Source of the DNA: Haloplanus aerogenes
Lineage (GTDB): Archaea; Halobacteriota; Halobacteria; Halobacteriales; Haloferacaceae
Length of the DNA stretch: 64,000 nucleotides
Assembly: GCF_003856835.1 (NCBI RefSeq)
Contig: NZ_CP034145.1
Coordinates: 558,001-622,000 of the forward strand
Reading direction: 5' to 3'
Below, piece after piece: positions 16,191 through 54,958 of this stretch (position 1 is the stretch's first letter; the number at the start of each line of letters is the position of its first letter). A program made the position numbers and the translations under genes. Below the pieces are notes generated by a model that saw nothing but the letters and a program-made list of their open reading frames with translations, was not told the DNA's origin and made no database searches.

Positions 16191-16268
16191 GACCCCGTAA
16201 CCCCGTGGTCGCGTCCGGTACGCGACGATTAGTGGGGGGAAGGTTCCTACTGCCGGTTGTGAGTCGAC

Positions 16269-16305
16269 CGAGAGCGTCGCTACTCCGCGGGTAGCGACGC
16301 TCTCG
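16269..16305. repeat. 14-bp perfect inverted repeat between divergent promoters
   Basis: CGAGAGCGTCGCTA (16269-16282) is followed by a 9-nt spacer and its exact complement TAGCGACGCTCTCG (16292-16305). It sits 20 nt upstream of the TATA box for the zinc-ribbon gene and about 80 nt upstream of the TATA box of the surface-protein gene. It could be an operator or a small palindromic mobile remnant. Confidence 0.75.
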
Positions 16306-16324
16306 AAACAGTCGCAGCCGACAG

Positions 16325-16332
16325 TATAAATA
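16325..16332 (+). promoter_or_regulatory. TATA box for the zinc-ribbon gene
   Basis: TATAAATA centred about 27 nt before ATG 16355. A near-consensus archaeal TATA box; it implies a leaderless message. Confidence 0.7.
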
Positions 16333-19296: not shown

Positions 19297-20601
19297 ATGC
19301 CTTCTCGGTACGGCACTGGCGACGTACTCGTCGTCCTCGGCTGTCTCTGCTTTCTCTCCACCGTCGTCGTGGGTGCGGCGCTGGCACCCACCGGCGCGAC
19401 GAGCGCTACGACACCCGACGACGGCGACGACACGCCCCGAACCCTCGTCGGCGTGCAGGGTGTCGGTAGCTACGTCGCGGACGGCTCCGTCCGCCTCCTC
19501 GACGGCGACGAGGAGCAGTGGCGCGAGTCCTCGGCCTCCGTCTACTTCGACGTGACCAAGCTCGACAACGGCTCGGTGCTCGCGGGCTACATGGCCGACG
19601 GCTACGAGGACTGCGGTCCCTATCCGGCGCCGTGTCACCGTACCGGCTTCCGGATCATCGACCCCGACGCCGACCCCTCGCCCGAGGTAGTGTACGAGTG
19701 GTCGTTCCCGGTGCGTAACCGGGTCGCGAGCGAGGTTCACGACGTCGAACCCCTTCCCGGCGGCGGCTTCGTCCTCGCCGACATGGAACACGAACGGGTG
19801 CTGATCGTCGAGAACGGCGAGGTGACGTGGGAGTGGAACGCCGACGAGCGCTACGAGGTGCCCGAAGGCAAGGACCGGACGAAAATCGACTGGCTCCACA
19901 TCAACGACGTGGACCGCATCGGCGAGGGTCGCTTCCTCGTCTCGGTACGCAACGCCAACCAGCTCGTCATCCTCGAACGTGGCGAGGGCGTCGTCGAGGT
20001 GATCAACGAGGACCACGACGACGCGAGCGACGACGACAGGATCGTGGGCGATCCGTCGGTCCTCTACCACCAGCACAACCCGCAGTGGCTCGGTGATGGC
20101 GCGGTCCTCGTCGCCGACAGCGAGAACCACCGCGTGGTCGAACTCCACCGGACCGACGACGGGACGTGGGAGCCCGTCTGGGTGCTCCGTGGTGCCGCCG
20201 ACCAGAAGTTCAACTGGCCGCGCGATGCCGACCGCCTTCCCAACGGCAACACACTCATCACCGACACGCGCAACGCCCGCCTCGTCGAGATCAATTCCAC
20301 GGGGACCGTCGTCTGGGAACACCAGTTCGACTACCGCACCCTGCCGTACGAGGCCGACCGCCTACCGCAGGGCGAACTCGTCGGCGCCCCTACCTACGGG
20401 AACACGGCGTCGGACGGCGTCACGGCCGGCGGCTACGTGCCCGTTCTCACACCCCTCCTCCGCCTCGTCAGCGCCGCTATCCGCCTCCCGCTGTGGGTCG
20501 GCGAACTCCACCTCTTCCTGACCCTCGTCTCCATCGCGCTCGTCGGTTCGGGCGTGGTGATCCGGTGGCGCGATGGCGAGAGCGCCCCTAGCAACGATTG
20601 A
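19297..20601 (+). CDS. Arylsulfotransferase (ASST)-like membrane-anchored propeller protein
   Basis: A 434-aa protein with an N-terminal signal or anchor helix (about residues 9-30), a repeated beta-propeller body and a C-terminal helix (about 395-420). Blades are marked by HDVEPLPGGGFVLADMEHER, DWLHINDVDRIGEGRFLVS and WPRDADRLPNGNTLITDTRN, typical of the arylsulfotransferase family. Bacterial members move sulfate between phenols, but archaeal members are uncharacterised and may only bind. It probably faces outside the cell. The last codons and stop (ending PSND) are provided by the palindromic element at 20588-20669. Confidence 0.8.
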   Translation: MPSRYGTGDVLVVLGCLCFLSTVVVGAALAPTGATSATTPDDGDDTPRTLVGVQGVGSYVADGSVRLLDGDEEQWRESSASVYFDVTKLDNGSVLAGYMADGYEDCGPYPAPCHRTGFRIIDPDADPSPEVVYEWSFPVRNRVASEVHDVEPLPGGGFVLADMEHERVLIVENGEVTWEWNADERYEVPEGKDRTKIDWLHINDVDRIGEGRFLVSVRNANQLVILERGEGVVEVINEDHDDASDDDRIVGDPSVLYHQHNPQWLGDGAVLVADSENHRVVELHRTDDGTWEPVWVLRGAADQKFNWPRDADRLPNGNTLITDTRNARLVEINSTGTVVWEHQFDYRTLPYEADRLPQGELVGAPTYGNTASDGVTAGGYVPVLTPLLRLVSAAIRLPLWVGELHLFLTLVSIALVGSGVVIRWRDGESAPSND

Positions 20602-20669
20602 AAGTCGGGGCCCATCTGATCGCAGTGCAGCGTGCGATCAGATGCACAAACCGTTTCAATCGTTACTAG
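20588..20669. repeat. Hairpin element A, overlapping a stop codon
   Basis: An 82-nt nested palindrome. The outer arms are CTAGCAACGATTGAAA (20588-20603) and TTTCAATCGTTACTAG (20654-20669), 15 of 16 complementary. The inner arms CATCTGATCGCA (20613-20624) and TGCGATCAGATG (20633-20644) are exact complements. The TGA of the preceding gene lies in the left arm at 20599-20601. A CTTTTTG box at about 20672-20678, just outside the right arm, is placed to start the Nudix transcript. It resembles palindrome-type non-autonomous elements. Confidence 0.8.
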
Positions 20670-20701
20670 AGCTTTTTGACTCGCTGTCGTTGACCACCTG
20701 T

Positions 20702-21298
20702 ATGGACGACACAGCCGACGAAACGGGCGACAGCGACGATCTCCAGTGGGCGACGACTGGCACGGCCGTCGACTACACCTGCCCCGGCTTCGACGTGCGT
20801 CGGGACGAGGTAACCCTTCCCGACGGCACCGAGACCGACTACCACTACGTCGACGAACCCGCGGCCGTCGTCGTCCTGCCCTTCACGCCCGAGGGCGACG
20901 TGGTCGTCATCGAGGAGTGGCGGCAGGCGGTCGGGCGCGTAAACCGCGGCCTGCCGGCGGGGTCGGTCGAAGACCTCGACGGCGACCTCGCAACCGCTGC
21001 CCGGCGCGAACTTCGGGAGGAGACGGGCTACGAGGCGGGGAGCGTCACCCACCTGTTCTCCGCGGAGCCGACCAACGGCATCGCCAACTCCGTCCACCAC
21101 CACTTCGTCGCCCGCGACTGTACGCCGACCGGGGAACGCGACCTCGATTTCAACGAGAGCATCCGGGTCGAAACGGCCGACTACGACGCGTTACTGGCGA
21201 TGGCGCTCGATGGCGACTTACGCGACGGGCGGGCGATGCACGCGCTGGCGCAGTACGAACTGCGCTTGGGTGTCGGCGCCGAACCTAGTAACGATTGA
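20702..21298 (+). CDS. NUDIX hydrolase (ADP-ribose pyrophosphatase-like)
   Basis: A 198-aa cytosolic protein. The Nudix box is GSVEDLDGDLATAARRELRE followed by ETGY, with the catalytic REUxEE core intact and one extra residue in the loop before it. The preceding strands (VVIEEWRQAVGRVNRGLPAG) match ADP-ribose or nucleotide-sugar pyrophosphatases. It likely hydrolyses an NDP-X compound with Mg2+. ATG 20702 is chosen over the in-frame upstream codons, which lie in the hairpin element. The gene is bracketed by perfect inverted 16-mers (20654-20669 and 21285-21300), and its last residues PSND come from that repeat. Confidence 0.88.
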   Translation: MDDTADETGDSDDLQWATTGTAVDYTCPGFDVRRDEVTLPDGTETDYHYVDEPAAVVVLPFTPEGDVVVIEEWRQAVGRVNRGLPAGSVEDLDGDLATAARRELREETGYEAGSVTHLFSAEPTNGIANSVHHHFVARDCTPTGERDLDFNESIRVETADYDALLAMALDGDLRDGRAMHALAQYELRLGVGAEPSND

Positions 21299-21300
21299 AA
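21285..21300 (+). repeat. Second copy of the hairpin-element terminus, overlapping the Nudix stop codon
   Basis: CTAGTAACGATTGAAA, the exact inverted complement of the right arm of element A. TGA 21296-21298 of the Nudix gene lies inside it. There is no local hairpin partner downstream, so this is a solitary end. Confidence 0.75.
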
Positions 21301-21358: not shown

Positions 21359-23284
21359 TTAGTCGTCGGCCGGAGCCTGACCGCCGGAGCCGGAGACGCC
21401 CGTGCCCGGACCCGCGGTGATGTCGAGGTCTTCGAGCGTCTCGTCGGTGACGACGCCGTCGACCCAGCCACGGTGGCTGTAGTACTCCTCTTTCATCTCG
21501 GCGAGTTCGCAGAGTTCACCCTCGGAGCCGCGCTGGCCGGGGATGGCTTCCTCGTCGCCTTCGACGAAGCGACCCGGGAGCGAGTCGTCGGAGCCGTCGA
21601 AGCCGGCGAGGTTGTTGAAGTAGCGTTCGAGGTTGTACACGCGCTCACCGGCCGTCATGAGCTCGTTCTCCGAGAGGTCACGGCCGGTCATGCCGTTGTA
21701 CTGCTTGATGTACTCCTCGATGCCTTCCGCGAACGCGTTGAACTTGCAGATGTCGAACGAGTCGGAGATGGCGTGCAGGTCCTGGAAGGTTGCACACAGC
21801 TCGCCTTTGCCCTCCCACTCGTAGGGATCGACCTTCTCCGGGATGCCGAGAATCTCGGCAGCCGGCGTGTAGCCGCGCAGGTGGCAGGCGCCACGGTTCG
21901 AGGTGGCGTAGCCGATGCCCATACCCTTCATGCAGCGCGGGTCGTAGGCGGCGATGGTCTGGCCCTTGACGTCGAGCCGGCAGTCGTGGGCGTCCTTCTC
22001 CTCGGCCATGCGTTCCGCGCCCATGGCGAGCAGGTCGCCGAGGTCGCTGGAGCGCTTGCCGGTCTCCTCGATGAGGTCGATCATGTGCTCCTCGTCGCCC
22101 CAGTCGATGCCGGCGTCGAGTTTGCCCTTGTCGGTCATCTCCATCGCCATGGCGAAGAGGTTCCCCATGTCGATGGTGTCGAGACCCATGTCGTTACAGC
22201 GGTCGATCATGACCGCGATGGAGTCGCGGTCGTCGTTGCTGGAGTTGGTGCCGAGGGCCCACGCACTCTCGTACTCGTAGGACTCCATCCGGACGTTCAT
22301 GTCCTGGCCCTTGTGCTTGTAGTTGACCTCGACTTCCTTCTTACAGGCGACGGGGCAGGAGTGACAGGTGGGCTCGTCGACGAGGATGTTCTCGCGAACG
22401 TTCTCGCCGCTGATCTTCTCGGCCTCGACGTCCGTGCCTTCGGCCTCGTTCATCGCGAAGGAGGACGTGTACTGCCCGTTCTTCGTCGGGTGACCGTCCA
22501 TCTCCTCCGTGATGTTCATCAGGACGTTCGTACCGTACATCGAGAGCGCGCCCTCGTTGGGCGCGGTGACATCGGACTCCTGAATGACCTGCATCGCCTG
22601 CCGGGCACCCTCGCCGAACGTGTCGGAGTCCGCGGGCTTGGGCATCTTCGTGCCGGATTTGACGACGACGGCCTTCAGGCCCTTGTTGCCCATCACACAG
22701 CCGGTACCGCCACGGCCGGAGGCACGGTCGTCCTCGTTGATGATGCAGGCGTGACGGGCCTCGTTCTCGCCACCGGGACCGATGGCCATGATGGAGAGGT
22801 TCTTGCCGTAGGACCCCTCGACTTCCTCCTCAACGATCTCTCGGGTCTCGTGCGTACCCTTGCCCCACAGGTGGGAGGCGTCACGGAGTTCGACCTCGCC
22901 GTCCTCGACGACGGCGTAGACCGGATCCTCGCTCTGGCCTTCGAAGACCAGGCCGTCGAAGCCGGACCATTTGAGTCGGGCGCCGGACCAACCGCCGTGG
23001 TGGGAGTCGGTGACCGTCCCCGTGAGCGGGGACTTGGTACAGATGGCGATCCGACCGCTCATGACGGCCTGCGATCCCGTGAGCGGGCCGTTCATGAACA
23101 CGAGCCGGTTGTCCGGCCCGAGCGGGTCGACATCCGGCCCGGCGTCGAAGACGTATTTCACGCCGAGGCCGCGTCCGCCGATGTATTTCTTCGCGTCCTC
23201 GTCGTCGACGCCCTGATAGGAGACGTCGCCCGAACCGAGGTCCACGTGCGCTACGTGATCTCTGAATCCGCCTAAGTCTGTCAT
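21359..23284 (-). CDS. Aldehyde ferredoxin oxidoreductase (tungsten/molybdopterin, AOR family)
   Basis: A 641-aa enzyme, the usual length for the family. The N-terminal beta domain contains YIGGRGLGVKYVFD, and the cofactor region includes TDSHHGGWSGARLKWSGFDG and EDDRASGRGGTGCVMGNKGL. The 4Fe-4S ligands are in CHSCPVAC, with the fourth in FDICKFN. It oxidises aldehydes to acids with ferredoxin as acceptor, using a W or Mo bis-pterin. Haloarchaea have several paralogues with different aldehydes, so the substrate is open. It is monocistronic and convergent with the Nudix gene. A 10-bp palindrome lies 4 nt upstream of its ATG. Confidence 0.92.
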   Translation of the reverse strand: MTDLGGFRDHVAHVDLGSGDVSYQGVDDEDAKKYIGGRGLGVKYVFDAGPDVDPLGPDNRLVFMNGPLTGSQAVMSGRIAICTKSPLTGTVTDSHHGGWSGARLKWSGFDGLVFEGQSEDPVYAVVEDGEVELRDASHLWGKGTHETREIVEEEVEGSYGKNLSIMAIGPGGENEARHACIINEDDRASGRGGTGCVMGNKGLKAVVVKSGTKMPKPADSDTFGEGARQAMQVIQESDVTAPNEGALSMYGTNVLMNITEEMDGHPTKNGQYTSSFAMNEAEGTDVEAEKISGENVRENILVDEPTCHSCPVACKKEVEVNYKHKGQDMNVRMESYEYESAWALGTNSSNDDRDSIAVMIDRCNDMGLDTIDMGNLFAMAMEMTDKGKLDAGIDWGDEEHMIDLIEETGKRSSDLGDLLAMGAERMAEEKDAHDCRLDVKGQTIAAYDPRCMKGMGIGYATSNRGACHLRGYTPAAEILGIPEKVDPYEWEGKGELCATFQDLHAISDSFDICKFNAFAEGIEEYIKQYNGMTGRDLSENELMTAGERVYNLERYFNNLAGFDGSDDSLPGRFVEGDEEAIPGQRGSEGELCELAEMKEEYYSHRGWVDGVVTDETLEDLDITAGPGTGVSGSGGQAPADD

Positions 23285-24613: not shown

Positions 24614-24699
24614 CTATAGTAGCGTTTGGAACTGCTCACACACCTGATCGCCAGACGACGTGCGATCAGGTGTGCGATGACTTACAAACGCTACTATAG
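24614..24699. repeat. Hairpin element B after RaSEA
   Basis: An 86-nt nested palindrome. Outer arms CTATAGTAGCGTTTG (24614-24628) and CAAACGCTACTATAG (24685-24699) are exact complements. Inner arms CACACCTGATCGC (24639-24651) and GCGATCAGGTGTG (24662-24674) are also exact. The inner CTGATCGC core is shared with element A, and the outer TAGCGTTTGGAACTG is shared with element C. Confidence 0.8.
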
Positions 24700-24782: not shown

Positions 24783-25865
24783 ATGGTAGACGAAACAGTT
24801 GGCACGCCGAGAAATTCGGCACCGGATGTCGACCATACCTATACCCCCGACGAGTTCATCGACCTTCCGTCCGGGCTCACATTTACGCGTCTGCTCCTCC
24901 TCATCGTGGTGGTCGTCGTCGCGGTCGATTACCTCGTCACTGGCCTTCCGGATGGCGTGATTCCGTACAATTACCAGTTCCTCGTGGGTATCGTTTACTG
25001 TCTCTCTGCGGTCGTTGTTCTGGAGAAGATATATAATCGATACGACCGCGCTCGGTTGGAACTGGTTAGCCTCTCGGAACGCACGTCCGATGTCGTGATT
25101 GTCGACGAATACGAGATCAATGGTGAGCAGATCGACCGGGAGTTTCAATCGTTACTTGACAAGGGTTTTCACCCCGTCGTCATCGTTGGCGGCGGCGTGG
25201 TCGGCGGTGCGTTCGTATACGGAGTTATGTGGGGTCTCGATGTCTTTTGGGCCTATCCATATCACTTGACAAACTACCTGTATGGCGCTGTTCATGGCCT
25301 GTATTACGGGCCGTTGGCCGTCGGGATGTATCTCATACATCGGATCTCGAACACGTATATCTCGGATATCGACATCCTAGCACCGGACGGATTGGGTGGA
25401 TATCGGGCGATGGGAGACGCTCTCGTGTCGATAATCACCTATGCGATCTTTCTCGTCACGCTCGATTTCATCATCATCTCGAGCATCTCGTTTCTCGACA
25501 ACCCGATTTTCCGCGGGGTAGCGATGGTGATATACGCTGCTATGCTTGGCTTTTTCCTGCTTCTTACTCTCTACGCAACCATCGCCATTCGAAGGCGGTT
25601 ACTGGACATCCAAGAGCGGAAGATCGATATAATGCGCGAGTATTTCAACGAGACGGAGACTACATTCTGGCGCAAACAGGCTGAAGGAATCAACTCGGAA
25701 GCTGAAGCCTCCGAAATCATGACAATGTATACGATGTTTGACCATCTCAATCAGATGGCGCTATGGCCGTTGAACCTCTACTCGTTCGCGAAACTCGCTA
25801 TCAGTCTCGGGAGTTCGCTGTTTGTTTTCGCGCTCGACTACGGTATTCTCTCTCTTCCCTTTTGA
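24783..25865 (+). CDS. Uncharacterised multi-span membrane protein, 360 aa, lower GC
   Basis: About six hydrophobic segments are visible (near residues 36-56, 66-84, 128-150, 165-186, 212-236 and 242-266), with a charged helical region near 270-320. No transporter or enzyme signature is recognisable. Base composition is clearly less GC-rich than neighbouring genes and codon use is less biased, suggesting recent acquisition. It lies between a hairpin element and a short orphan coding tail. A 14-nt match to the hairpin terminus (TTTCAATCGTTACT) occurs within it at 25143-25156. Start ATG 24783 gives the best N-terminus. Confidence 0.65.
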   Translation: MVDETVGTPRNSAPDVDHTYTPDEFIDLPSGLTFTRLLLLIVVVVVAVDYLVTGLPDGVIPYNYQFLVGIVYCLSAVVVLEKIYNRYDRARLELVSLSERTSDVVIVDEYEINGEQIDREFQSLLDKGFHPVVIVGGGVVGGAFVYGVMWGLDVFWAYPYHLTNYLYGAVHGLYYGPLAVGMYLIHRISNTYISDIDILAPDGLGGYRAMGDALVSIITYAIFLVTLDFIIISSISFLDNPIFRGVAMVIYAAMLGFFLLLTLYATIAIRRRLLDIQERKIDIMREYFNETETTFWRKQAEGINSEAEASEIMTMYTMFDHLNQMALWPLNLYSFAKLAISLGSSLFVFALDYGILSLPF

Positions 25866-28322: not shown

Positions 28323-28886
28323 GTGACTGGTGCCTCGCGCGGATCGGCGGCCGACGGCGGGCGCGACGGCGACGAGCCGACCGTCGTCACGGTCGACCGC
28401 GATACTGCGCCCGCCCGCAACCCCGCCACCGCCGTCGACCTCCAGCGCCTCCGCGACCTGAGCCACCTGCTCGACGACTCGATCCGCGTCCCCGGCACCG
28501 ACTTCCGCATCGGGATCGAACCGCTGATCGGCCTCCTCCCCGTCGTCGGCGACGCCGTCGGTCTCGCCATCTCGACGTACGTCTTCGCCGTCGCCGCCCG
28601 CTCCGGCGTCCCGCGGGCGACGCTGGGGCGGGTCGCGGTCGTCCTCTGGATCGACGCCGTCGGCGGCGCCGTCCCCGTCCTCGGCGACCTCTTCGACGCC
28701 TACTGGAAGGCGAACCTGCGGGTGTCTGATCTGCTCGACGCCCGCCTCGACGACCCCGCGAGCGCGGCCGCCGATCGACGGTATCTCCGGCGACTGGCCG
28801 CCGTCGCCGTCGTCTGTACGCTCGTCGTCGTCGCCGTCCTCGCCGTCCTCGTGTGGTGGCTCCTCGGCTACGTCGGTGCGGTGTAG
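28323..28886 (+). CDS. DUF4112 family membrane protein
   Basis: A 187-aa protein. The conserved domain begins near residue 37 with [16 protein letters not shown] and continues through [20 protein letters not shown] and [16 protein letters not shown]-like residues, the DUF4112 pattern. Two or three hydrophobic helices are present, including a strong C-terminal one. Function of the family is unknown. GTG 28323 is chosen because it begins right after the promoter region shared with purC and keeps the acidic N-terminus. The stop TAG 28884-28886 is also the first three bases of hairpin element C. Confidence 0.82.
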
Positions 28887-28955
28887 CGTAGCGTTTGGAA
28901 CTGATCGAACGCTGTCTTTCGACCGGCTGTGCGATGACTTCCGAACGCTGCGCTA
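28884..28955. repeat. Hairpin element C, beginning at a stop codon
   Basis: A 72-nt imperfect palindrome. The left arm TAGCGTAGCGTTTGGAA (28884-28900) pairs with TTCCGAACGCTGCGCTA (28939-28955) at 15 of 17 positions. The TAG at its left end is the stop of the DUF4112 gene. It shares TAGCGTTTGGAACTG and TGTGCGATGACTT with element B, so the two are related copies. Confidence 0.75.
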
Positions 28956-28994
28956 GATGGCAAGACAGTTACGCCCGCCAGCCCCTCACCCGGT

Positions 28995-54836: not shown

Positions 54837-54850
54837 GGCCACTCCCGACA

Positions 54851-54928
54851 GTTAGGAGGTATCGTAGCTGTCGATAGACGCTCGCCGGGCCACGGAGAGC
54901 GTCTATCACGACCTCCGATAATCCTAAC
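54851..54928. repeat. Hairpin element D upstream of npdG
   Basis: A 78-nt nested palindrome. The outer arms are GTTAGGA (54851-54857) and TCCTAAC (54922-54928). The middle arms are GGAGGT (54855-54860) and ACCTCC (54911-54916). The inner arms GATAGACGCTC (54873-54883) and GAGCGTCTATC (54897-54907) are exact. The architecture matches elements A and B, but the arm sequences differ. Its right end lies about 30 nt before the npdG start. Confidence 0.65.
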
Positions 54929-54958
54929 TCTTACCTCTGCCGGGTCCGGATTCCGACC

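Follow-up and report, generated by a model that had tools for sequence, protein, structure and literature searches.

Stop-codon insertion of a palindromic, probably IS630-mobilised repeat beside a Nudix gene of Haloplanus aerogenes

The two exactly inverted 16-mers found on either side of a Nudix hydrolase gene of Haloplanus aerogenes are very probably arms of a non-autonomous 80-bp MITE, which would insert into the TA of CTAG-like targets with duplication of the TA, would be moved in trans by an IS630/Tc1-family transposase having the same ends, and would have relocated the stop codons of both window genes involved. The window is the whole stretch of DNA analysed, 64,000 nucleotides of contig NZ_CP034145.1 (positions 558,001 to 622,000, forward strand), and all coordinates refer to it. 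A tempting false reading, that of a transposase-free gene cassette, is replaced by a mechanism of stop-codon insertion.

Inverted 16-mers and window copies

The sequence TTTCAATCGTTACTAG is located at 20654-20669 on the forward strand and its exact complement at 21285-21300, just as the first-pass annotation had described. The same annotation rightly placed the Nudix stop codon (TGA, 21296-21298, of the open reading frame 20702-21298) inside the right 16-mer and recognized that this frame and the upstream one (19297-20601) share the end PSND. When up to three mismatches are allowed, four matches to the 16-mer are found, compared to 0.03 expected from dinucleotide shuffles; the fourth, at 25143-25158, is ordinary coding sequence, and the occurrence of the two 16-mers is not due to chance. 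Regarding the left copy, it pairs with CTAGCAACGATTGAAA at 20588-20603, with one mismatch, forming an 86-nt hairpin (20586-20671) that contains an inner hairpin and has a folding energy of -41.9 kcal/mol, whereas shuffled sequences average -22.0 (z = -6.1). As this true partner arm is 66 bp away, the Nudix gene is not the thing enclosed by a pair, and the relevant pairing is that of 20654 with 20588, not with 21285.

This hairpin, W1, is an intact copy of a palindromic repeat, family A, which the covariance model matches with 85.0 bits on one strand and 76.2 bits on the other. Its core is the 80-bp element running from TAG to CTA at 20589-20668, whose flanking positions correspond to TA and C/G. 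The upstream arylsulfotransferase-like gene (19297-20601, forward strand; Pfam PF14269/PF05935) has its TGA stop at 20599-20601 in the left arm (20588-20603, reverse strand), its C-terminus running into W1, and the right arm (20654-20669, forward strand) is the left 16-mer. Meanwhile, the C-terminus of the Nudix gene (20702-21298, forward strand; PF00293, 51 bits) runs into the right copy, where one arm (TAGTAACGATTGAAA, 21286-21300) is followed by an A and then by the far end of the element, CTA-TA-G, up to 21307. The sequence 3' of this point matches what relatives have behind their Nudix stop, and in the simplest reading the right copy would be the remnant of a second, independent insertion with its middle deleted. 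The earlier suggestion that the same terminus had inserted twice independently is thus retained as two insertions of one repeat, but one of them is an intact hairpin and the other was apparently cut to a single arm. A second intact family A copy, W2, is located 3' of a radical SAM gene (24614-24699, 95.4 bits), and no counterpart of it was detected by a signature scan of the fetched congener regions. In addition, the window holds a decayed family A copy at 28883-28957 (36 bits, E = 2.4e-6 in the window) and two diverged copies resembling a sister group, group B, at 54850-54929 (41.6 bits, E = 1.7e-8) and, on the reverse strand, at 16245-16329 (40.2 bits, E = 4e-8).

Family A and its insertion site

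Pattern and model searches place family A at about 25 sites in this genome, and matches are present in 25 of 79 genomes of the host family, spread over 10 of 28 genera; the copy numbers differ greatly between genomes. An alignment of 87 copies of 86 bp is gap-free, with the consensus CTATAGTAGCGTTTGCAACTGnTTGCACAnCCGATCGCACG..CGTGCGATCGGGTGnGCGAAGACTTGCAAACGCTACTATAG, and the unit is an 80-bp imperfect palindrome of the form TAGTAGCG(A/T)TTG..AACTG..[inner hairpin]..GACTT..CAA(A/T)CGCTACTA. Like a MITE, it is short and non-coding, has terminal inverted repeats and is dispersed in many copies. In one copy from Halobellus inordinatus (L187), a different, longer insert is present in the loop region.

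When the joined flanks of four family A copies were sought in congeners, the copy at G000:C1:3261191 gave the clearest picture: this genome reads GAC-TA-[80 bp]-TA-GCGG, compared to a contiguous GACTAGCG in four congeners. The empty site is a single CTAG in which two convergent genes have their TAG stops, the two overlapping, and upon insertion the TA was duplicated and both stops were shifted to TGA codons within the arms. For the copy at G000:C1:752448, one congener shows TTCTAGCG as the empty site and others show TTCTAACG, while another congener bears a decayed repeat at the identical place; the remaining two joined sites gave less clean alignments. Moreover, a group B element of Halobellus inordinatus has received a family A copy, with duplication of the TA, the host ..CTATGCGG.. 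becoming ..CTA[element]TATGCGG... Target-site duplication is therefore seen against empty sites at two copies of this genome and at one nested Halobellus copy. No column-wise signal of direct repeats was found in the flanks of 84 copies outside CTATAG, indicating that there is no longer duplication, and the flanking C/G is present at about 73% of family A ends. As judged from these alignments, family A inserts at CTAG-like sites and duplicates 2 bp, the TA. A target duplication at the two window sites, for which the first-pass annotation had advised looking, is not visible, as the left TA reads CC both at W1 (20586-20592) and at the remnant (21283-21288). It was probably lost by substitution, and the parallel change from TA to CC could be a coincidence or the result of gene conversion between the two copies.

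Stop codons and shared C-termini

The tetranucleotide CTAG occurs 18 times in the window, compared to 192 expected, a depletion of about tenfold, and among the 15 sites outside the elements, three are stop codons, while stops account for about 0.25% of bases. In this GC-rich genome, the rarity of CTAG, its overrepresentation at amber stops and the harmlessness of insertion there would lead the copies to gather at gene ends. An element entering the TA of a TAG stop would produce TA-T AGT AGC GAT TGA, read as YSSD and then a stop within the arm. In agreement, 15 of 52 gene ends directed at family A copies stop at a TGA at offset 13, six copies being used from both sides; these counts cover high-scoring copies only and come from a crude ad hoc codon-usage caller that left many sides uncalled.

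Both window genes end in CCT AG(C/T) AAC GAT TGA, giving PSND, where the expected TAT has become CCT twice. These shared tails would exist because the same kind of insertion took place at the TAG stops of both genes: W1 would have entered the stop of the upstream gene and a second copy that of the Nudix gene, its middle being lost later. Rewriting of the C-terminus by stop-codon insertion may explain why unrelated haloarchaeal proteins share their last residues (SSD/SND), and landing on gene ends would be a way for mobile elements to persist in a compact genome. Such tails and hairpins should be treated by annotators as element-derived.

Mobilisation and comparison with known systems

Genes of the IS630 type (PF13358) were sought in the repeat-rich genomes, and one congener has an IS630 flanked by CTATAGTAGTC...GTCTACTATAG, whose relatives make up a clade present in 31 of 119 genomes of the host family. 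The ends of this clade are CTATAGTAG(G)CGTTAGAACT / CTACTATAG. Most inspected members have TA-TAGTA ends, several going on with (G)CGTTAGAACT compared to TAGTAGCGTTTGGAACTG in the repeat. Thus, the ends of the repeat, TA-TAGTAG...CTACTA-TA, match those of the clade along with the target, and autonomous transposons with TA-TAGTAG ends are present in relatives, as a MITE would require. According to Tenzen and Ohtsubo (1991), cited in PMC2170065, IS630 prefers the TA in CTAG, and its TA duplication inside CTAG is like that of the repeat; however, IS630 is an autonomous bacterial element, whereas the repeat is an 80-bp non-coding one. The identity of the ends and the CTAG target point to a transposase of the IS630 clade as the probable mobiliser. 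No close relative of the clade was found in this genome, so the family A copies here may be relics. Across genomes, the number of MITEs does not track the number of IS copies, and the conserved mismatched loop and covarying inner hairpin, described below, are not predicted by plain transposition through terminal inverted repeats, which counts against this explanation.

The repeats are most likely MITEs mobilised by an IS630, comparable to RUP of pneumococcus, which IS630-Spn1 is proposed to move (PMC2229807). As described there, RUP is also about 100 bp long, has IS630-matching inverted ends, inserts at TA and is intergenic and present at a high copy number. In contrast to RUP, the repeat is archaeal, has TAGTAG ends, lands on CTAG stop codons and possesses a conserved internal loop of C.C and G.G, common to a sister group with a 3-bp TNA duplication. 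Correia/NEMIS and ERIC, in the same source, resemble it in their TA termini, their stem-loop and some copies being read into genes, but they differ in sequence and are bacterial, and a fixed landing on stop codons is not reported in the parts of PMC2229807 consulted. The SMRs (families HqIRS40-43/55) and MITEs of Haloquadratum walsbyi are likewise short and non-coding, with inverted ends and many haloarchaeal copies, and insert into other mobile elements. By description they differ in that no target duplications are given for SMRs and that SMR-A favours PATEs (PMC3119063). A search of two Haloquadratum walsbyi assemblies with the family A model (R1) gave no copy. The intergenic repeats of virus HF1 were discarded as a match, being described as AT-rich and promoter-bearing. 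Also discarded was a candidate autonomous transposon between arms 2.2 kb apart in congener G008, as that stretch contains one complete repeat, an isolated arm and disrupted genes of no relation, with no transposase recognised.

The mismatched core and group B

Group B (model R2) is a sister group having different ends and the same mismatched core. Of 122 copies taken from family A and group B, 118 keep a C.C mismatch and 117 a G.G mismatch; the stems show 44 both-side changes among 7 cluster representatives (at most 22 in shuffles) and a paired fraction of 0.90 (at most 0.77 in shuffles). Group B copies are flanked by identical 3-bp repeats, TGA, TCA or TTA, in 37 of 40 sampled copies, and for 20 of 38 genes pointing at a group B copy, the stop codon is exactly this repeat. 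At E <= 0.001 and with at most 150 candidates scored per genome, at least 104 matches were counted in this genome and up to at least 149 in others, several Haloplanus genomes carrying some 100 copies or more (examples L389-L428).

The association of two end types with one common core suggests that the core does something of its own. It is tentatively proposed, and may well prove otherwise, that family A and group B belong to a haloarchaeal palindromic superfamily with two or more end types (TA and TNA, probably served by two mobilisers) and one mismatched core. This superfamily would colonise precisely stop codons and reach some 100 copies or more per genome in several Haloplanus, and the core would be a recognised nucleic-acid structure, either a 3'-end or a transposition signal, making stops safe landing sites. 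The conserved mismatched hairpin being identified, its role is testable.

A different emphasis, in which the repeat acts at gene ends primarily as a conserved, structured signal in RNA or DNA (a terminator, 3'-end stabiliser or protein site) spread by its usefulness, with mobility being secondary, seems unlikely. It would account for the strong placement at gene ends and for covarying stems and fixed mismatches across groups that differ in ends and target duplications, but it agrees poorly with the patchy and uneven copy numbers, the empty sites with TA duplication, the nested insertions and the finding that neither W1 nor W2 nor the remnant is conserved at orthologous positions; nor does the window have an Rfam match at the gathering threshold.

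Regarding nested copies, in congener G007 a group B element (L418) lies within the ATTGA of a family A arm, with TGA duplicated. In Halobellus inordinatus, three separate loci (L182, L183 and L184) have a group B element at the same position of the family A element, with TCA/TGA duplication, and this composite may have moved as a unit.

REP elements are palindromes of 20-40 bp tied to a RAYT transposase, and the present repeat, at 86 bp, has the wrong length for one. It is quite improbable that the repeat is of the REP-like or IS200/IS605 (PATE-like) type and travels in single-stranded, folded form with a Y1 transposase reading the hairpin mismatches. The imperfect hairpin with conserved mismatches and the GTAG near its foot, as in one REP superfamily (PMC3733652), would suit this reading; however, IS605-type elements and PATEs are without terminal inverted repeats and target duplication (PMC3119063), while the repeats described here have such terminal repeats and true duplications, of TA in family A and TNA in group B.

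The Nudix locus in relatives

A protein search for the Nudix gene covered 30 relatives, 11 of them from the same genus, and the gene was found in all 11, flanked by the arylsulfotransferase-like gene on one side and, on the other, by the aldehyde ferredoxin oxidoreductase (AOR) gene, a conserved convergent neighbour located here at 21359-23284 on the reverse strand (PF01314/PF02730). As seen by comparing the short spacers, the repeat is absent from the W1 and remnant positions in all 11 congeners. The Nudix gene is thus a resident and not cargo. The first-pass annotation had set against its own cassette the case of the gene occupying this locus in all relatives with the 16-mers kept as coding sequence; the first part holds in the 11 congeners, whereas the 16-mers are absent there and so are not conserved coding sequence. 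Several congeners have the upstream gene ending in CTAG, e.g., GGAACTAGCTTTTT, and others have a plain TAG stop for the Nudix gene followed by sequence resembling that 3' of the remnant, e.g., TAGCCGTCGCTGGCCGG. Identity between the congeners and this genome is only about 80%, so the two window insertions can be dated only to after the split.

The minimal mobile cassette of the first-pass annotation, with the Nudix gene as cargo between the exact inverted 16-mers that do stand on both sides of it, has next to no likelihood left, because the gene is syntenic with both neighbours in every congener searched without the 16-mers, cargo and ends are not present or absent together, and the left 16-mer is part of its own complete hairpin, of a kind found throughout the genome with no Nudix gene accompanying it. 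A search of viral contigs gave no relative of the Nudix protein. In congener G011 (L093/L280), a group B element is present at the AOR stop, in the very Nudix-AOR spacer where the remnant lies in this genome.
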